NCBI RefSeq assembly: GCF_000812465.1
Contig: NZ_JWMA01000104.1
Span: forward strand, 62,001-126,000
DNA: 64,000 nucleotides
From: Cupriavidus sp. IDO
GTDB taxonomy: Bacteria > Pseudomonadota > Gammaproteobacteria > Burkholderiales > Burkholderiaceae
Direction of reading: 5' to 3'
In this document: positions 30,867-51,261 of the stretch, piece by piece
How positions within the stretch are numbered: the stretch's first letter is position 1
How the letters are laid out: the number at the start of each line of letters is the position of its first letter
Program-made: the position numbers and the translations under genes
Notes under the pieces: generated by a model
Database searches by the model: none
What the model was told of the DNA's origin: nothing
The model's input: only the letters and a program-made list of their open reading frames with translations

Positions 30867-31025
30867 TTGGACTGAGCCCTGATCGTCGACGATCATCCCA
30901 CCATCCGGATGGCTGTTTCCGCCCAGCTTGTCCGCGAGCTGGGTGCGCGAAAGGTACTGGAGCCGACAATGTTGCGGCAGGCGCTGGGGTTTCCAACAGT
31001 AGCCCAAATCTCTAACCAAACCTGA
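30867..31025 (+). pseudogene. Decayed 5' end of a response-regulator gene, cut by the IS
   Basis: A near-ideal ribosome-binding site (GGAAGGAG, 30853-30860) is followed after six bases by TTG, GAC, then a TGA stop at 30873-30875. The frame continues ALIVDDHPTIRMAVSAQLV and RELGARKVLE, the first beta-alpha unit of a receiver domain with the acidic DD pair. After about 35 residues the similarity stops and the frame ends at 31023-31025. The intact parent was probably a LuxR-type (BvgA/EvgA-like) regulator. Both the nonsense codon and the truncation by the insertion element disable it. Confidence 0.65.
31005..31011. repeat. Left copy of a short inverted repeat at the element ends
   Basis: CAAATCT here is the exact reverse complement of AGATTTG at 33357-33363, next to the 3' hairpin of tnpB. 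Seven bases can match by chance, and IS607 elements are not known for terminal repeats. Confidence 0.3.
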
Positions 31026-31094
31026 TCATTAGTTGCGTACGCTCCACATTATTTGTGATGAGGAGTCGTTGTGCAATGATGCTCGATTGGAGAA

Positions 31095-31721
31095 TTGGCG
31101 GTGATGTTGGGTGTTGCCGTGGTAACGCTGCGGCGCTGGGACAAGGCAGGCCGGCTAACGCCGGCCTGCCGCACGTTGGGAGGTCACAGGCGCTATGACC
31201 TTGCCAAGATGCGAGATGCATTAAGACAAGCCGGTCCACCAAAAGGTGGTAAGACCATTGCCTACGCCCGCGTGTCATCGCATGACCAGAAGGGGCAACT
31301 GCAAAGCCAGGCGCTTCGACTACAGCGACATTGCGAGCAGCAATGCTGGCCCAACATCGAGGTCATTACTGACCTCGGCTCTGGATTGAACTACAAGAAG
31401 AAGGGCCTGCTGACGCTGCTGCGGGAGATCCTGATGCGTCAGGTCACGCGCATCGTGCTCGTGACGAAGGACCGGCTGCTGCGCTTCGGGTCGGAGTTCC
31501 GCATCTGCGACGTCTTCGATGTCGAGGTGGTGGTGCTCGACGCACAAGAAGACATTTCGCGCGAACAACAACTCACCGAGGATCTGGTCGAAATCCTGAC
31601 TGTCTTCTCTCCGCGACTGTATGGCACGCGCAGTCGGAAAAATCTGAAAGCCTTGCAAGCGGACGCGAATGTGATTAAATCACGGCACACTAAGAACGAA
31701 GAACTTTGCCCTTGCAACTGA
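31095..31721 (+). CDS. tnpA: IS607-family serine-recombinase transposase TnpA
   Basis: The 208-residue reading has a MerR-like winged helix (MLGVAVVTLRRWDKAGRL, then TLGGHRRYDLAKM) and a serine-resolvase domain with the catalytic serine in TIAYARVSSHDQKGQ. It ends with ILTVFSPRLYGTRSRKN, typical of IS607 TnpA. In this family TnpA alone moves the element. The frame is open upstream of the TTG at 31095 and reads SIGELAVMLGV, as expected for the start of the helix-turn-helix. However, no ATG precedes it before a TGA at 31077-31079. The N-terminus may therefore begin at a rare codon or carry a small deletion. Confidence 0.85.
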   Translation: MAVMLGVAVVTLRRWDKAGRLTPACRTLGGHRRYDLAKMRDALRQAGPPKGGKTIAYARVSSHDQKGQLQSQALRLQRHCEQQCWPNIEVITDLGSGLNYKKKGLLTLLREILMRQVTRIVLVTKDRLLRFGSEFRICDVFDVEVVVLDAQEDISREQQLTEDLVEILTVFSPRLYGTRSRKNLKALQADANVIKSRHTKNEELCPCN

Positions 31722-33370
31722 CCATCCAAACGCGCCCGCCGATTGCGTCGCAAGCCATTCCAGTGCTGGATCGGCTGTGCGCGCACTACGGCCTGCATAA
31801 GCGCAAGCTCTACGCGCGCGTGGCAAAAGATGGTGGCAAGGCCAAGGACTACAAGACTGAATTCTGCCAGCAGTACGGCCTCACCGCCCGCTACTTCAAT
31901 GGCCTGTTCAACGATTTGCAGGGATCGATCGACAGCGTTCGTGAGCTGTTGACAGAGGGCATCAAGGACAAGCGCGGCGATGTTCAAAAACTGAAGGAGC
32001 GTCTCAAAGGGTACGACAAGAAGCTCGCGGAAATCGCGTCGAAGAAAGTTCTTGTCACCACCAAGGTGTTCAAGCGCTGGACCAAACAAAAACGCAAGAT
32101 TGAACTTAAGATCGAACGCCTGGACAAGCAGATTCAGGAGTTCAGGGTCCGCTTGGCCGCGAATGTGCCCGGCATCTGCTTTGGCTCGCGCAAGCTCTTC
32201 CACAAGCAGTTCAACCTCTCAGAGAACGGCTACGCCAATCACAAAGCGTGGAAGAAGGATTGGGATGCCGCGCGCAACCATGAATGTTTCTTCCTCGGAT
32301 CCGGCGACGAAAAAGGCGGTAACCAATCCTGCACGCTGTTTGTTGGTGAGGATGGCCTGCTCGCGCTGCGCATCAGGTTGCCCGATGCCGTGGCGGCTGC
32401 CTGCGGGCCGGCAGACGGCGGTCCGAGGCCGGAAAAACTCACGAGCAAGGATAAGTACCTCGTTCTGCCTGGACTGACGTTCCCGTACGATGAGGCCGAT
32501 CTGCGTCGCGCCCTACGCGATGGCAAGGCGCTGTCCTGGCTGATCCACAAGGATCACAAGGGCTACCGCTTGATGGTCTCGTTTGATCGGCCGGAGACGA
32601 AGGTATCGACCCTTAGCCGTAAGTTCGGCGCGATCGGCATCGACTTCAACGCCGACCGTCTTGCCGTCGCAGAGACCGATCCGGGCGGAAACGTCATCAA
32701 GGCGTGGCGAATCGATCTTACGTTCGAGGGCAAGAGCAGCGGGCAGCGCGACGCCATCTTGTCCGATGCGCTGGAGGAGGTGGTCGAATATGCGCTGAAG
32801 GTGCGCAAGCCGATCGCCGGCGAAGATCTCAACTTCGCCGACAAGAAGAAGGACATGACAGCGATGACGCCCGCGCAGGCGCGGGCGCTGTCGGGTCTTG
32901 CCTACGCGAAGTATCAGCAGTTGCTCGCCTCGAAGTGCCACCGGCGCGGCGTCGAGCTAATCAAGGTGGACCCGGCCTACACGTCGGTGGCTGGGCTGGT
33001 CAAATACGCTAAGCCGCGTGGGCTTAGCGTCCATAAAGCGGCCGCGGGTGTCATAGCCCGTCGGTCGCAGGGCTGCAAGGAAAACATTCCAAGAGAGGTA
33101 TCGACACCGGTATCTATCATGGGTGTGACCGCTGTCTTCCGGCTACCTGCAAGGAATCGTTCGGAGGCTGGCGGCACATCTTGGGGTGAGATCCACGTGG
33201 CTCTGGGCAAGTTCCGGCGCGAGATGATCGCCGCACAGAGGAAATCTGTTGCGCGAAAGGTCGGGGCGTCCCGCGGCGTCAAGTCGCGAGGGCCGAGCGG
33301 GGGCACCGTGAACCCTGCGGGAATCAAATCAAATAGCTCACCGCGAAGCGGTGAGCAGATTTGTTCCTAG
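31706..33370 (+). CDS. tnpB: TnpB-type RNA-guided nuclease homologue (atypical catalytic site)
   Basis: The 554-residue protein overlaps tnpA by 16 bases and starts at TTG. A Lys-rich helical region (residues 90-150) precedes the RuvC-like core: D313 in AIGIDFNADRLAVAET and E373 in PIAGEDLNFADKK. The segment that normally carries the zinc knuckle (VDPAYTSVAGLVKYAKP, residues 421-437) has no CxxC pair. The place of the third RuvC aspartate reads GLSVHKAAAGVIARR, with no aspartate. TnpB proteins of IS605/IS607 elements cut DNA with an RNA made from the element's right end. This one belongs to a variant group whose activity I cannot judge. The ORF runs through the terminal hairpin. Confidence 0.85.
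   Translation: MPLQLTIQTRPPIASQAIPVLDRLCAHYGLHKRKLYARVAKDGGKAKDYKTEFCQQYGLTARYFNGLFNDLQGSIDSVRELLTEGIKDKRGDVQKLKERLKGYDKKLAEIASKKVLVTTKVFKRWTKQKRKIELKIERLDKQIQEFRVRLAANVPGICFGSRKLFHKQFNLSENGYANHKAWKKDWDAARNHECFFLGSGDEKGGNQSCTLFVGEDGLLALRIRLPDAVAAACGPADGGPRPEKLTSKDKYLVLPGLTFPYDEADLRRALRDGKALSWLIHKDHKGYRLMVSFDRPETKVSTLSRKFGAIGIDFNADRLAVAETDPGGNVIKAWRIDLTFEGKSSGQRDAILSDALEEVVEYALKVRKPIAGEDLNFADKKKDMTAMTPAQARALSGLAYAKYQQLLASKCHRRGVELIKVDPAYTSVAGLVKYAKPRGLSVHKAAAGVIARRSQGCKENIPREVSTPVSIMGVTAVFRLPARNRSEAGGTSWGEIHVALGKFRREMIAAQRKSVARKVGASRGVKSRGPSGGTVNPAGIKSNSSPRSGEQICS
33336..33356 (+). ncRNA. 3'-terminal hairpin of the element, candidate omega-RNA scaffold stem
   Basis: GCTCACCGC-GAA-GCGGTGAGC forms a perfect 9-base-pair stem with a GAA loop at the extreme right end of the element, inside the last codons of tnpB. 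No T-run follows, so it does not look like a terminator. In known TnpB systems the guide RNA derives from the tnpB 3' end and the adjoining right end, with the guide read from flanking DNA. By that logic a guide would begin shortly after 33356. Confidence 0.45.
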
Positions 33371-33425
33371 TGATGTTAGCGGTAGACTGTCGGACGTGTA
33401 CGACGAATCCTGGTCCAGCCTGTCG

Positions 33426-46000: not shown

Positions 46001-46696
46001 GTGGAATTGTTGTCCACCACCACGTTCTGGATTGCGTTGGGATCGATCATCCTGACCAATATCGTCCTGTCCGGCGACAACGCGGTGGTCATCGCGCTCG
46101 CCTCGCGCAATCTGCCGCCCGCCCAGCAGAAGAAGGCCATCTTCTGGGGCAGCGCCGCCGCCATCGTCATGCGGGTCGTGCTGACCGTGGCCGCCGTCAA
46201 GCTGCTGAGCCTGCCGTACCTGAAGATCATCGGCGCCGTGCTGCTGGTCTACATCGGCGTGCAGCTGCTGAACGGCGATGACGACGAGGAAGGGCACGAC
46301 GCCAAGGACAACATCTGGGCCGCCATCCGCACCATCCTGATCGCCGACCTCGTGATGTCGCTCGACAACGTCGTCGCCGTGGCCGCCGCCGCCCAGAAGG
46401 GCCCCGAAGGCAGCCAGCTGATGCTCCTGATCCTGGGCCTAGGCCTGTCGATCCCGCTGATCGTGTTCGGCAGCACCATCCTGCTGAAGGTCATGGAACG
46501 CTTCCCGGTCATCATCGTGCTGGGCGCCGCGCTGCTGGGCTACCTCGCCGGTGAAATGCTGGTCAGCGATCCGGTCGATGCGGCGTGGTTCGAAGTCAAC
46601 GTCCCGCACGCTCACCTGGTGTTCGGTGCCGCCGGGGCGATTCTGGTGGTTCTGGTCGGCAAGCTGATGGGCCGTCGGGCAGCGCAGACGGCCTGA
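46001..46696 (+). CDS. TerC-family integral membrane protein (YjbE type)
   Basis: The 231-residue protein has about seven membrane helices and both TerC motifs: IVLSGDNAVVIALASRNL near the N-terminus and ADLVMSLDNVVAVAAAAQ in the middle. The two Asp residues sit in membrane helices and are thought to bind metal. TerC relatives export manganese or load it onto secreted enzymes. A short acidic loop (DDDEEGHDAKD) lies between the halves. The start is a GTG at 46001 with a clear AGGAG seven bases upstream. Confidence 0.9.
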   Translation: MELLSTTTFWIALGSIILTNIVLSGDNAVVIALASRNLPPAQQKKAIFWGSAAAIVMRVVLTVAAVKLLSLPYLKIIGAVLLVYIGVQLLNGDDDEEGHDAKDNIWAAIRTILIADLVMSLDNVVAVAAAAQKGPEGSQLMLLILGLGLSIPLIVFGSTILLKVMERFPVIIVLGAALLGYLAGEMLVSDPVDAAWFEVNVPHAHLVFGAAGAILVVLVGKLMGRRAAQTA

Positions 46697-46716
46697 CGGG
46701 CGTCCGGCGCCACAAC

Positions 46717-46743
46717 AAAGGCGGCTCATTGCGAGCCGCCTTT
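46717..46743 (+). terminator. Terminator after the TerC gene
   Basis: AAAGGCGGCTC at 46717-46727 pairs with GAGCCGCCTTT at 46733-46743, an 11-base-pair stem with ATTGC loop, 20 bases after the stop codon. Confidence 0.85.
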
Positions 46744-46790
46744 GTCATTCCCGGCACCGGAAGTTCGGCGACTAACTCATGTGAGTGATC

Positions 46791-46886
46791 GCACATTTTG
46801 TCGCTTCGGAGCCGGCTTCGGCGTCCAGATGACAAAATTTGCCAGTTGCCGCAGCCATCACCTGAGCGGGTGACGAAATTTGTCGC
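46791..46886 (+). promoter_or_regulatory. Three GACA/TGTC activator-type sites upstream of pilA (PilR-like)
   Basis: Three copies of one motif occur at roughly 35-41-base steps: TTTTGTC (46796-46802, GACAAAA on the other strand), GACAAAATTT (46831-46840) and GACGAAATTTGTC (46872-46884). In Pseudomonas, PilR binds TGTC-containing sites upstream of a sigma54 pilA promoter. Placement 35-120 bases before the -24 box is right for an enhancer-binding protein. Confidence 0.6.
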
Positions 46887-46916
46887 ATCGAACCCCACAT
46901 ATGGGGAATCGCAGGC

Positions 46917-46931
46917 TGGCACGCATTCTGC
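46917..46931 (+). promoter_or_regulatory. Sigma54 (-24/-12) promoter of pilA
   Basis: TGGCACGCATTCTGC has GG (46918-46919) and GC (46930-46931) exactly ten bases apart, with the consensus TGGCACG at -24. It predicts transcription starting near 46943, about 60 bases before the pilA start. Confidence 0.75.
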
Positions 46932-47001
46932 TGTATGGCTCTGGCGTCGCGTTTACGAAGACGTGCAGTGCTTAACCAAAATCTCTTCGAGGGGTCAAAT
47001 C

Positions 47002-47460
47002 ATGCAACGGGTACAACAACTGAAGAAGCTGGGCCGCCGTGTCCAGAAGGGCTTTACGCTGATCGAACTGATGATTGTTGTGGCGATCATTGGTATTTTG
47101 GCGGCGATTGCGATTCCGCAGTATCAGGATTATGTGACGCGTAGCCGTTGGTCGGATGTGTATTCGCAGGTGGCACCGTTGAAGTTGGCCATCGCGCAAT
47201 GCACTCAGACCAATGCAGGCGGCGTGACCTCGTGTGATACGCTTGCCGCGCTGACCAGCGAAGTAGGTTATTCCACACTGCCGACTCCGGCCAACGCATC
47301 GGTAACGATTACTGGCACCACCGCGGCTATCCTGATGGCAGCGAAGGCACAACTCGGTACTACCTGCACAGTGACCTTGACTCCGACGCTTACATCCAAT
47401 GCAGTGACGTGGGCGGCGACCGATGGCGGTGGTTGCACCAAGTCGCAGACCGGCGTCTAA
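47002..47460 (+). CDS. pilA: Type IVa major pilin
   Basis: The 152-residue prepilin has a 17-residue basic leader ending QKG, then the processed N-terminus [20 protein letters not shown] with Glu5. PilD would cut after G17 and methylate the Phe. The globular part has two cysteine pairs ([13 protein letters not shown] and C-terminal TTCTVT with [11 protein letters not shown]) that should close loops. GAGGGG precedes the ATG at 47002. A sigma54 promoter and three putative activator sites lie upstream, and two PglL-like glycosyltransferase genes follow, pointing to glycosylated pili. Confidence 0.93.
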
Positions 47461-47479
47461 GCCGTTTCAAGCTCAAGAG

Positions 47480-47506
47480 AGGGCATCTTCGGATGCCCTT
47501 TTTCTT
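47480..47506 (+). terminator. Terminator of pilA
   Basis: AGGGCATC-TTCG-GATGCCCT (47480-47499) followed by TTTTCTT. A stable eight-pair stem with a TTCG loop, 19 bases after pilA, so pilin message ends here and pglL is expressed at a lower level. Confidence 0.9.
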
Positions 47507-47519
47507 ATGGAGACGGGCA

Positions 47520-49343
47520 ATGAAAGCCGCGCTCAATGCAAGCAGTTCGTGGTCAGCGCTCTTCCTAACACTCATGCTCTGGTCCGCACCATTCCTGATC
47601 GTTCCTCACACTTTTCCCATCTCGACGTTTTACTCGGAATCCCTTGCGATTGCCATCTCAGTTTTGCTAGCAGGCGCGGCATTGCTAATGCGTATATGTC
47701 GGGGCGGTCAACTCCCAATTGCCATGGTTTCGTGGGCTCCCGTGGGCCTCATTGTCGCGTTGTTGGTCCAATTGACCGTGATGCGCGTTTCGCGTCCGGT
47801 GCCGTCGTTCTTTGCTATTTTCTTTTGCTTGTGCGCGATACTTTCCATTCAAGCAGGATTGTGGCTTGGTTGCGACCGCAACAGAACTAGGCGGCTATTG
47901 CGGGCATGTGCCGTTGGCAGCGTGCTCTGTGGCTTGATTTCGTTTGGCATGGCATGGGTGCAAGCCTTCGGTATCGAGGCGCACTATTCACCCTGGGTGG
48001 CAACTTATCCCTACGATAGCGGGCGAAGACTTTTTGCCAACCTATATCAACCAAATCATCTCGGCACCGTCATCGCCTTGGCCATGGCCGGCGCACTCTA
48101 TCTCCGTCGAATGCATGACATTGGTCGCTTTGCACTAATGGGAGTGTTGATTGTGCTTGCAATCGGCATAGCGCTGACGGCATCGCGCACCCCTATCATT
48201 CAAACCGCAGTCGTAGCCGCGGCAGCGCTGATCATGGCGCGTGTGCAAGAAGCGGAATATCCTCCAGTGAAATGGTGGCGCGCTGCCTTGTTCGGGGCTT
48301 TGCCTGTACTTGCTGTGATAGCGGCGATGCTCTTTGTGGCGTGGTTGAATCAGACATTCGATCTTCGTCTCGCTACGTCCGCGGCGGAGCGCATGAGTGA
48401 ACAAGGCCAGATATCACCACGCCTGGCCCTGTGGCGCTATGCATTTGAGGTCTTTAAGCAGAATCCCTTGCTCGGGGTTGGCTGGGGTGAGTATGTTCGA
48501 GCGCAGTACTTGATCGCAGACCGTCTCGGTCCCGTGGAAATGGGCAACAACGCGCACAACATAGTGCTCGATCTCCTGGCAAAGACCGGGCTCGTTGGAG
48601 CAGCGGCAACCCTGCTACCGTGCCTGTATTGGTGTTGGTGCAGTATTAGGGCGATCCGCGCAGGCGATTTCGCAGTCCAGCGTATTTACTGCATTACTGT
48701 AGTGTCGGTCGTGGCGGTGCACGCAATGCTTGAGTTCCCCCAGAACTATGCGTTCTTCCTGCTGCCGATATGCTTTATGATGGGGTTGGCGGAAACGCGG
48801 TACTGGCAAGGGATGAGTAGAGGTCTCTCAACGGGAGTGACGATTGCCATGCTGGTAACCGTCTCTGCAGGTCTGGTGGCAGGCTACTTCGACTATCGGA
48901 AAGCCGAAGTGGTTTACGAGCAAAGAGGGGCATTACGATACTTTGCCAGCCCGTCTTTCATTTTTGCAGACTGGGCACGCTATGGCCTGACAGGTGCAAT
49001 GGAGTTAGATCCGGAATTGCTGTCTGAAAAGCTGGCGATGCATGAGAATGCGCTTACCATATCGGCAACTCCAAATATGATCCGACGCTACACTGTCCTG
49101 TTGGCGCTAGATAATCGACCCCGCGAGGCATTGCTTCAGGTTCAGCGTCTAAAGAACTTGTCTAATGGACAGTTTGACGTTCAGTATGCACGCCTGCTGG
49201 CAATGTGTGATGAGCAAAAGGGCGCAATCGATGAGTTTAAGCAGAAATTGCTCAATCTCTACGGGCAGCCCAAGGCGGAAAAGATTGGCGTCTCGCAGAC
49301 GTTGAGCGTGGACGGTAATCCGGTAATAGCATATGGCAGGTAG
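47520..49343 (+). CDS. PglL/TfpO-like O-oligosaccharyltransferase (Wzy/WaaL superfamily), first copy
   Basis: The 607-residue inner-membrane protein has about 12 helices and a soluble C-terminal region with repeat-like sequence (YTVLLALDNRPREALLQVQRL). Signatures shared with the next gene are RRLFANLYQPNHLGT, LTASRTPIIQ, WRYAFEVFKQNPLLGVGWGE and NNAHNIVLDLLAKTGLVGA (catalytic-type His). These are typical of PglL (Wzy_C_2) ligases that move lipid-linked sugars onto pilin. GGAGA precedes the ATG at 47520. Base composition is clearly lower in GC than the flanking genes, suggesting transfer. Confidence 0.85.
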   Translation: MKAALNASSSWSALFLTLMLWSAPFLIVPHTFPISTFYSESLAIAISVLLAGAALLMRICRGGQLPIAMVSWAPVGLIVALLVQLTVMRVSRPVPSFFAIFFCLCAILSIQAGLWLGCDRNRTRRLLRACAVGSVLCGLISFGMAWVQAFGIEAHYSPWVATYPYDSGRRLFANLYQPNHLGTVIALAMAGALYLRRMHDIGRFALMGVLIVLAIGIALTASRTPIIQTAVVAAAALIMARVQEAEYPPVKWWRAALFGALPVLAVIAAMLFVAWLNQTFDLRLATSAAERMSEQGQISPRLALWRYAFEVFKQNPLLGVGWGEYVRAQYLIADRLGPVEMGNNAHNIVLDLLAKTGLVGAAATLLPCLYWCWCSIRAIRAGDFAVQRIYCITVVSVVAVHAMLEFPQNYAFFLLPICFMMGLAETRYWQGMSRGLSTGVTIAMLVTVSAGLVAGYFDYRKAEVVYEQRGALRYFASPSFIFADWARYGLTGAMELDPELLSEKLAMHENALTISATPNMIRRYTVLLALDNRPREALLQVQRLKNLSNGQFDVQYARLLAMCDEQKGAIDEFKQKLLNLYGQPKAEKIGVSQTLSVDGNPVIAYGR

Positions 49344-49464
49344 GTACAGCCGCCTTGCGGCTGCCATTAAGGAAGTTAGGGATAGCGTCTAGCCCTGAGG
49401 CTGGTCAGCGAAGGCGTGACTCATTTCGCGATATGATGCACGCTTTCAACGGGGCAACTGTCAC

Positions 49465-51261
49465 ATGCCAGTCCGTAGTTTGCCAGCTCTGGAAGGGCTA
49501 GTTGCCTTGGTGTTGGTACTTCCATTATTGGTATCCAAGCACACCCTGCCACTTGCCACCTTCTACGGCGAATGGGCCAGCGCAGCACTGTTCTGTTTCG
49601 CCGTAGTAAGCCGGTACGCCGCTGCAAGGCAGACCGGCGCCGCTAATGCCAAGGCAGTCCCCTGGGTAGTCCTTGTCCCGCTGTGGCTCATTCTGACGAG
49701 CCTGATCCAGGCAGCAGCCGGCGTAATTGACTACACCGGCAGTCGTATGGCCACCCAACTGGTGCTGGCCCTCGGCGCGGCAGTCATGTGTGCCGCTTGG
49801 CGCTTGAGCAGCTGCGGCGACCGTGATGCAATGCAAGGTGTCACGACAGCCATCTCCGTCGCCTTCCTCGTCGCTGGTCTCTTCGGTACCCTGGCGCAAT
49901 GGGTGCAGCTGTTCCACCTCGAACCCAAGACCTTCGGCCTAGTCTCTCCCTACTTCTACGACGACAACCGCCGCCTCTGGGGCAACCTGAACCAGCCCAA
50001 CCACCAGGCCACCGTTGAAGGCCTCGCGCTGGTGGCCTCAGTGTGGCTAGCCTCGCGCGGCTCACTGCGCTTCCCGATGTGGCTGGTCGCAGTTGCCTTG
50101 CTGGAAAGCGGCATCGTACTGTCCGGCTCCCGCACCGGCGTGCTGCATGTCGGGCTCGCAGCGGTGTACGCATTGGTGGCAGCATGGCTGGCTCGCGATG
50201 TGCGACGCGATGCCGATCCCATGCGCCGGCCCATGGGGCTGGTCGTCGCAGCGATCGCGATGGTGGTAATGCTGCTGGTGCTGCATCCAACGATCAAGGC
50301 AGCCGGGCAGGCTTTCGACTGGCGCCTGTTCGATACGCTCGCTCAACTGAAGGCCGAGGACCAGATTTCCGCGCGCGGCGCCTTGTGGACCCACGCCATC
50401 GCCATGTTCCGCTCGCATCCCTGGCTCGGCGTAGGCTGGGGCGAGTTTGGCTGGGCGCAGTTCCAGCAGATGGAGCAGGTCCGGGTGAAGGTGGAGATGT
50501 CCCTGCACGCTCACAACGCCATTCTCGACCTGCTGGCGAAGACTGGCATCGTTGGTGCCGCCGGTGTCGGACTGATCCTGCTTGCCTGGCTCTGGCGCGT
50601 GATCCGGGTTCGCCTCTGGCATGGCGATAGCGAGGAGCGCAAGCAGACGGTGCTGGTGCTGACCTGGCTGGCGATGCTGTGCGCGCACTCGATGCTGGAG
50701 TATCCGCTGCACTATCTGTACTTCTTCCTGCCGTTCTGCTTCATGCTGGGCTGGCTGGAGCCTTCGGGCTTCGGGCAGTGGCGCATGCCGCGCTGGATGT
50801 CGACGAGCCTTGTCGCGGCCTTCGTTACCATTTCCGCCACCGTGCTGGTGACGATGTGGCAGGACTATCGCCGCGTGGAGGCGCGCGAGTACGCCGGTGC
50901 CGAGCGCCGCGACACGCTGCCGTTGCCGCGATTCTGGTTTCGCCAGCATGCCGAAGCGGACATTGCCGAGCGTGCGGTCATCACGCCGGACAATGCTGCC
51001 AGCCTGCTGCCAGCCCATATCGCCGCCGTGCATCTGCTGCCGACGCCGACCATGATTGCCCGCACGGCGTGGCTGCTGGCCTTGATTGGCAACCCCGCAC
51101 AAGGCAGGGCGTGGCTCGAGCGGCTTCGCTACTACTATGCCGGCGACGAGGCGGCGCAGTACGCCTCTCTTGCGCAGGACTGCCACAATGTTGCCGATGA
51201 CGCCCGTCCGAAGGCGTTCTGCGACTGGGTGCACAGGCAGTCCCGGCGCATGCCGGAATAA
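49465..51261 (+). CDS. PglL/TfpO-like O-oligosaccharyltransferase, second copy
   Basis: The 598-residue membrane protein is a diverged paralogue of the preceding gene. It shows NRRLWGNLNQPNHQATVEG, LSGSRTGVLHVGLA, WTHAIAMFRSHPWLGVGWGE, SLHAHNAILDLLAKTGIVGA and SMLEYPLHYLYFFLPFCFM. The helix layout and C-terminal soluble part match PglL. Its second half is GC-rich like the rest of the chromosome, unlike the first copy. One enzyme may serve pilin and the other different proteins, or one may be an O-antigen ligase; the sequence does not decide. Confidence 0.83.
   Translation: MPVRSLPALEGLVALVLVLPLLVSKHTLPLATFYGEWASAALFCFAVVSRYAAARQTGAANAKAVPWVVLVPLWLILTSLIQAAAGVIDYTGSRMATQLVLALGAAVMCAAWRLSSCGDRDAMQGVTTAISVAFLVAGLFGTLAQWVQLFHLEPKTFGLVSPYFYDDNRRLWGNLNQPNHQATVEGLALVASVWLASRGSLRFPMWLVAVALLESGIVLSGSRTGVLHVGLAAVYALVAAWLARDVRRDADPMRRPMGLVVAAIAMVVMLLVLHPTIKAAGQAFDWRLFDTLAQLKAEDQISARGALWTHAIAMFRSHPWLGVGWGEFGWAQFQQMEQVRVKVEMSLHAHNAILDLLAKTGIVGAAGVGLILLAWLWRVIRVRLWHGDSEERKQTVLVLTWLAMLCAHSMLEYPLHYLYFFLPFCFMLGWLEPSGFGQWRMPRWMSTSLVAAFVTISATVLVTMWQDYRRVEAREYAGAERRDTLPLPRFWFRQHAEADIAERAVITPDNAASLLPAHIAAVHLLPTPTMIARTAWLLALIGNPAQGRAWLERLRYYYAGDEAAQYASLAQDCHNVADDARPKAFCDWVHRQSRRMPE

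Follow-up and report, generated by a model that had tools for sequence, protein, structure and literature searches.

The open reading frame (ORF) at positions 31706 to 33370 of the window, i.e. the whole 64,000-nucleotide stretch of Cupriavidus sp. IDO DNA analysed here (contig NZ_JWMA01000104.1, positions 62,001 to 126,000), is best explained as the TnpB of an IS607-type transposon. The protein would belong to a zinc-less branch with the RuvC residues D313, E373 and H443, the 3' end of its gene would double as the guide RNA, and it likely cuts DNA; we give this combined reading a probability of roughly 0.58. The protein is a TnpB-related variant and not a canonical TnpB, because H443 replaces the RuvC-III aspartate of the DxNAA motif. 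The gene and the residues at issue are the following.

31706 to 33370, forward strand: zinc-less TnpB with a TTG start and 554 amino acids, assigned from TnpB profile matches and the predicted fold
32642 to 32644, forward strand: D313, RuvC-I metal ligand, on strand 310-314 of the structural model
32822 to 32824, forward strand: E373, RuvC-II metal ligand, at the end of strand 370-373 of the model
32969 to 32971, forward strand: D422, an earlier candidate for the third residue, not conserved
33032 to 33034, forward strand: H443, third RuvC residue replacing Asp, placed by the family rows, the start of a helix in the model and the ends of the overlay alignments

A sequence-only reading of this gene had noted D313, E373, a lack of CxxC pairs and SVHKAAAGV in place of DxNAA. 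All four are as described, and since the pattern is kept across an 89-row family alignment the zinc-less D-E-H arrangement is not a product of chance. D313 lies in GIDFNAD, E373 in GEDLNF and D422 in VDPAYTS; the SVHKAAAGV (HKAAAGVI) stretch, whose histidine is H443, sits where TnpB normally has DxNAA. A zinc knuckle made of two CxxC pairs is present in many TnpBs, although not in all; the window protein has no CxxC pair and each of 86 family rows has at most one. The 89 rows were obtained from this 86-row table by leaving out L010, L018, L065 and L094, whose frames end before RuvC-III, and L012, a near-copy of L008, and by adding eight plasmid rows; the window protein and many near-copies are counted among them. 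A second full copy in the window's genome, L002, is 72% identical to the window protein, and two poorer relatives are also found there. The GTG start of L002 aligns with TTG 31712, which is perhaps the true start of the window gene.

In profile searches the window protein matches TIGR01766 with 35.5 bits, above the cut-off of 32, while its matches to NF040570 (guided_TnpB, 58 bits, cut-off 100) and Pfam PF07282 (22.9 bits, cut-off 26.3) stay below threshold. TIGR01766 and NF040570 are both matched by 49 of 49 aligned members at E 1e-3. A single-sequence search of the PDB returned only weak matches, to Cas12f and to unrelated chains, none with an E value below 0.07, a PDB profile search gave Cas12f-type matches, none better than E 0.0025, and among the PADLOC profiles only Cas12f and Csx1 models were matched, each in part.

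D313, E373 and N315, which forms DxN with the first aspartate, are present in all 89 rows; six ordinary zinc-type TnpBs have Gly (five) or Asn (one) at the position of N315. Loss of the RuvC acidic residues defines TldR-type dead TnpBs, and with D313 and E373 in every row this hallmark is not seen here. Position 443 is His in 79 rows, Asp in seven, Gly in two and Ser in one, near-copies included. In D-type relatives such as SKDVAAAYVI (Thermus) and SSDIAAALVI (Calothrix) the aspartate falls exactly in column 443, and the isoleucine seven residues further on corresponds to the Ile of DxNAAxNI. The catalytic site is thus altered, as had been proposed, with zinc knuckle and third aspartate both missing and H443 at the usual place of the third residue. 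The same proposal had named D422 of VDPAYTS as the replacement. This residue is present in the window copy and directly follows strand 418-421 of the RuvC part of the model. It is, however, Asn in L002, and the 89 rows have N 66, D 18, H 2, G 1, P 1 and K 1. It also pairs with a position that varies in the six zinc-type TnpBs (N 3, D 2, A 1), in agreement with the profile alignment. A rearranged site with D422 as third acid is therefore hardly credible, and we rejected it. As a separate observation, L126, L127 and L128, zinc-type TnpBs from related genomes, have Gly aligned at the RuvC-II glutamate (FVGNVNAKAM) and perhaps use an alternative Glu beside the zinc knuckle.

To place H443 in the fold we used an AlphaFold2 model built on 49 sequences (mean predicted local distance difference test score 87.2, predicted template modelling score 0.77). 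Overlays on ISDra2 TnpB, both 8exa (Z 14.9, root-mean-square deviation (rmsd) 4.1, 286 residues aligned) and 8h1j (Z 12.5, rmsd 3.9, 285 aligned), show that the model has the two-lobed TnpB/Cas12 fold. Thermus RuvC 4ld0 (Z 12.5, rmsd 3.1, 135 aligned) and Cas12m 8pm4 (Z 11.9, rmsd 5.1, 331 aligned) also overlay, and whole-chain comparison in Foldseek gave low TM-scores against Cas12 chains, with a maximum of 0.44. H443 lies at the N-terminus of the last RuvC helix, 442-454. Read from the alignment ends and on the assumption that this helix is free of gaps, H443 corresponds to residue 361 of ISDra2 TnpB (ends 459-377 and 457-375), to H143 of Thermus RuvC (458-158) and to D138 of E. coli RuvC 1hjr (458-153). 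We take residue 361 to be the third aspartate of ISDra2 TnpB. For ISDra2 TnpB itself, D191 and E278 are named in the literature, and H143 and D138 are both named as RuvC active-site residues (PMC3834835). H443 thus likely lies at the third-residue position of the RuvC fold in the model, and the site reads D-E-H, with H443 overlaying the position of H143 of active Thermus RuvC. A conventional D-E-D triad, for which the overlay on ISDra2 TnpB had been proposed as a check, is not seen.

The 3' end of the gene shows signs of a second function. The features of this region and of the adjoining host DNA are the following.

33071 to 33382, forward strand: predicted guide-RNA (omegaRNA/reRNA) region overlapping the tnpB 3' end, from synonymous suppression, its 5' limit not fixed
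33306 to 33311, forward strand: 5' arm of a pseudoknot, CCGTGA, in the loop of a GCGGGG/CCCTGC stem, pairing with the 3' end in 13 sequences
33336 to 33356, forward strand: nine-base-pair hairpin GCTCACCGC-GAA-GCGGTGAGC near the right end, seen in the sequence and like a stem in L002, L031 and L032
33377 to 33382, forward strand: 3' arm of the pseudoknot and right end of the element, ...TTAGCGG, from the alignment and host flank homology
33383 to 33402, forward strand: predicted 20-nucleotide guide in host DNA adjoining the right end, from the position of that end and by analogy to ISXfa1

Relative to L002, 15 of the 71 unchanged degenerate codons in 456-554 differ synonymously, compared with 150 of 319 before (p 6e-5), and the proportion of synonymous differences is 0.25-0.28 in the guide-RNA region versus 0.49-0.70 elsewhere. 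In an alignment of 13 of 16 places (L034, identical to L005 in this region, and two L056 matches were excluded) 92.3% of the pseudoknot cells are paired, with a covariation score of 0.218. Each of these values was reached by one of 500 shuffles, and control pseudoknots slid along the alignment are 26-56% paired. Double changes occur in only two of the six pairs, three pairs are invariant, and the window copy has one pair broken. The GCGGGG/CCCTGC stem was not counted, because the Cupriavidus-type rows are shifted by one column. Synonymous suppression in the last 100 codons together with the conserved pseudoknot therefore point to an overlapping guide RNA, so that a right-end RNA is predicted by both conservation and covariation; an Rfam search gave no match at E 1. 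A comparable pseudoknot is required for activity of ISXfa1 TnpB, and by analogy to that system the first guide nucleotide (33383) may belong to the scaffold (PMC10711439).

The branch is spread over many phyla. A match at E 1e-20 was found in six of 299 genomes of the window's family, its own included, and in one of 398 genomes in a profile search of a phylum sample (again its own). A small order-level sample gave one of 11 genomes, already found before. Viral contigs gave two pattern matches and no relative. A scan of a genome collection was made with a five-row query alignment consisting of His-type members, and the best 80 of 104 relatives were kept, so that the proportion of His should not be read as an unbiased estimate; among the 69 of these loci that could be read at position 443 there are 64 His, two Asp, two Gly and one Ser. 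His-type members occur in 12 named phyla, with three unassigned, although the eight from Verrucomicrobiota come from one genome and single contigs of metagenome-assembled genomes may be misbinned. For the tree we used 70 zinc-less and six zinc-type rows, left out 19 near-copies or short rows and removed the trait columns together with their neighbours. In this tree the zinc-less rows lie on one side of a branch (Shimodaira-Hasegawa-like approximate likelihood ratio support 96). Position 443 changes to or from His five times and Asp four times, a rough count from a quick tree with several long branches, in which gain and loss are indistinguishable. Repeated exchange of His and Asp in one column is expected for one metal ligand with two solutions.

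An IS607 recombinase match accompanies 53 of the 79 His rows and none of the seven Asp rows (L008, L022, L025, L080, L087, L131, L137), as counted from hits of four TnpA queries (E 1e-4) at any position of the available flanks, which for L131 extend over 600 bases upstream only. The Fisher p value of 0.0008 for this difference ignores shared ancestry and flank length. One may tentatively suppose that the large D-E-H branch has been tuned to be slow, nicking or binding-only, whereby an IS607 element would mark or hold its empty site and not break the chromosome, and, from this distribution, that lineages without recombinase regained or kept D-E-D cutting; we regard this as rather unlikely. A different association is found on the Ammonifex plasmid pADEG01 (L132:1-2431), where an annotated iscB is followed after 14 bases by a His-type TnpB gene on the same strand.

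In the mechanism that we favour, the third Asp would be replaced by His at an unchanged location in the RuvC fold, with H443 binding metal ion A. With the tnpB 3' end also serving as guide RNA, the complex of protein and RNA would recognise the empty donor site of the transposon. DNA cutting may be slower, or have a different metal preference, than that of a D-E-D TnpB, which would in turn favour retention of the element. Working precedents for such a site exist. Thermus RuvC is active with its natural His (H143), and H143D is more active (PMC3834835). In SpCas9, H983 has been modelled as metal A ligand and H983A is sharply reduced, while H983D retains cutting, at a lower rate than the wild-type enzyme in a time course (PMC8112549). 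By analogy to these enzymes the window TnpB probably still cuts, weakly or conditionally, rather than purely binding.

Several observations weigh against this reading. Thermus RuvC also has a further aspartate three residues on. The same extra Asp is found in SpCas9 (H983, D986; PMC8112549) and E. coli RuvC (D138, D141; PMC3834835). Here the 82 aligned rows have Ala (79) or Ser (three) at position 446, so that the site holds fewer carboxylates than the working precedents; the absence of this Asp is why we expect cutting to be weak or conditional. The placement of H443 is affected by a MAFFT alignment that sets the aspartate of zinc-type TnpBs one column beyond 443, by a profile-profile alignment that ends at residue 428, short of H443, and by the assumption of a gap-free helix mentioned above. 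The highest-ranking overlay, tied with 8exa, is on Cas12k 8rdu (Z 15.6, rmsd 8.6, 398 aligned), a protein without cutting activity (PMC11127173). L100, L105 and L110, from cyanobacteria, have Gly or Ser at 443 and retain D313 and E373; they are perhaps natural binders. For the guide RNA, two of five pseudoknot measures (double-change pairs and further pair types) were equalled by 236 of 500 shuffles each. Among the clades with altered RuvC, only an RII-r5 member is named as cutting in the accessible part of PMC10278001.

These points bear on an alternative in which the D-E-H site would hold one metal ion and grip the displaced strand, so that the complex would be a roadblock or repressor like Cas12m2, or in which RuvC would act on its own RNA only. 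Cas12m2 has a non-canonical H-D-D site with one Mg ion that holds DNA without cutting, an example of RuvC ligands kept for tight DNA binding without cleavage (PMC10442227), and the D-E-D Cas12m members tested do not cut double-stranded DNA either (PMC11013384). Some TnpBs process RNA and yet are inactive in a target-adjacent motif screen (PMC10278001), and the lack of a fourth acid at 446 would likewise suit binding only. However, Thermus RuvC and SpCas9 both function with a histidine here, Asp-443 members appear at several places on the tree, and an IS607 recombinase-like match accompanies 53 of the 79 H-type rows, a setting in which the role of cleavage is plain. Furthermore, Cas12m, which has a zinc finger, carries its His at the first position and not at the third. 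Binding without cutting is thus a possibility that we take seriously, at clearly less than even odds, and a cutting D-E-H TnpB is the reading that we prefer.

Compared with ISDra2 TnpB and ISXfa1, the window TnpB shares the fold, the RuvC-I Asp, the RuvC-II Glu, a 3'-end guide RNA with a pseudoknot next to the guide and, as an IS607 element, GG crossover ends. It differs in having no zinc knuckle, His for the third Asp and DxN (N315) after the first Asp. The RuvC resolvases of Thermus thermophilus and Deinococcus share Asp-Glu-His as the first three active-site residues, and in Thermus RuvC the His is at the same structural position as H443, as far as the alignment ends tell. In contrast to TnpB, these resolvases retain another Asp three positions beyond, as also seen in E. 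coli RuvC, are not RNA-guided and cut Holliday junctions. Cas12m (type V-M) is likewise a TnpB-like effector with His in its RuvC site, and kinship with it was our first guess. We rejected it, because the His of Cas12m2 sits at RuvC-I, with Asp third and an HCCC zinc finger (PMC10442227), whereas the window TnpB has His third and no zinc motif.

TnpB clades with altered RuvC-III are already catalogued: five TnpB clades, including RIII-r4 with altered RuvC-III, are named in Nety 2023 (PMC10278001) from the Altae-Tran 2023 census, and altered-RuvC clades need not be dead, since one RII-r5 member cuts (PMC10278001). The zinc-less D-E-H branch may be RIII-r4, which it resembles by description in having a non-canonical RuvC-III residue, here H443. 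A literature search that left most subscription journals and the PNAS census outside its coverage gave no description of a D-E-H TnpB or of its RuvC parallel. The branch, which spans 12 named phyla, carries His at a metal-ligand position at which the opposite exchange, from His to Asp, makes Thermus RuvC faster. To our knowledge it has not been settled if a transposon benefits from TnpB only when the protein cuts; within one family, natural members of the H and D types, together with an H443D variant, would offer a clean comparison on this point. The branch could also provide compact RNA-guided proteins free of zinc that act as attenuated cutters or as natural binders.

The element around tnpB spans about 30987 to 33382, and its remaining features are the following.

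30987 to 31030, forward strand: left end, beginning GG-GGTTTCCAACAGTAGCCC, its inner limit arbitrary, resembling the left ends of the Verrucomicrobia LP2A copies, L002 and L033
31077 to 31079, forward strand: TGA stop at codon 3 of the homologous tnpA start (VVQ*CSIGEL in the window, VQLFSIGEL in L002)
31095 to 31721, forward strand: tnpA, IS607 serine recombinase with damaged N-terminus, from its NF033518 match

The tnpA product matches NF033518 (transpos_IS607) with 178.7 bits at a cut-off of 110 and is thus an IS607 serine recombinase of the type with an N-terminal DNA-binding part, here with a damaged start region; its AYARVSS segment presumably carries the catalytic serine. Because the homologous GTG-CAA start runs into the TGA, translation would start at TTG 31095. 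Relative to L002, the window tnpA is also two residues short in GSE--FRIC. In L002 (L002:1495-3798) tnpA is frameshifted after QQLT and reads in frame into tnpB, giving a single ORF of 767 amino acids.

The ends are delimited by Verrucomicrobia LP2A, which has eight copies of a related element with differing flanks, seven of which share 93-97% identity with the eighth (L038). These copies begin with GGGTTGCCAACAG (GAG... in one copy) and finish with GGAACGG, and GG stands at both ends of all eight except for GA at the left of L049; their left end GGGTTGCCAACAGTTGACT resembles that of the window element. The window right end, ...GTTAGCGG at 33382, finishes in ...TTAGCGG. Homologous host DNA runs up to 33382 in two same-genus genomes, where it is preceded by non-element DNA. 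On the left the host DNA of the same-genus genomes is alike only to about 30702, with other DNA between, and a clean empty site was not found in the two genomes compared; the left end was for this reason placed by similarity. GG ends are typical of IS607 (PMC10711439), and here GG is found at both ends, with the right GCGG set by the right flanks and the left one by likeness. Of the earlier description as an apparently complete IS607 unit the ends have thus stood up, while tnpA, with its early TGA and two missing residues, has not fully done so.

The damage to tnpA raises the alternative that the odd RuvC-III motif is decay in an eroding remnant of a dead transposon. Consistent with this, L002 tnpA is frameshifted as well, other broken copies exist, 11 of the 80 genome-collection loci lack a long ORF spanning RuvC-III, and the ratio of nonsynonymous to synonymous divergence (dN/dS) among five LP2A copies is no lower than 0.29-0.48. 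Between the window TnpB and L002, however, dN is 0.184 and dS 1.02, and 69 of the 80 genome-collection loci keep an ORF of at least 420 amino acids across RuvC-III, 64 of them with His. The eight similar LP2A copies in one genome also argue against decay, as do the near-identical elements L002, L031 and L032 (dS 0.02-0.05), which occupy three separate insertion sites and indicate recent movement; one of these sites belongs to the window's genome and the other two to Cupriavidus lacunae. Based on the divergence from L002, the tree of long ORFs and the 69 intact loci we rejected decay as very unlikely. The earlier suggestion that selection kept this TnpB is borne out by the same divergence and by the broad tree, in which the family is not merely a set of scattered, decaying copies. 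Within the protein, residues 401-455, comprising RuvC-III, are the best conserved part, with four of 55 differing from L002 (one being D422N) compared with 122 of 397 in residues 1-400 (p 9e-5).

Elsewhere in the window, positions 46001-50000 have a G+C content of 0.56-0.59, compared with 0.62-0.72 in the remaining 2-kb steps, and are possibly acquired DNA.

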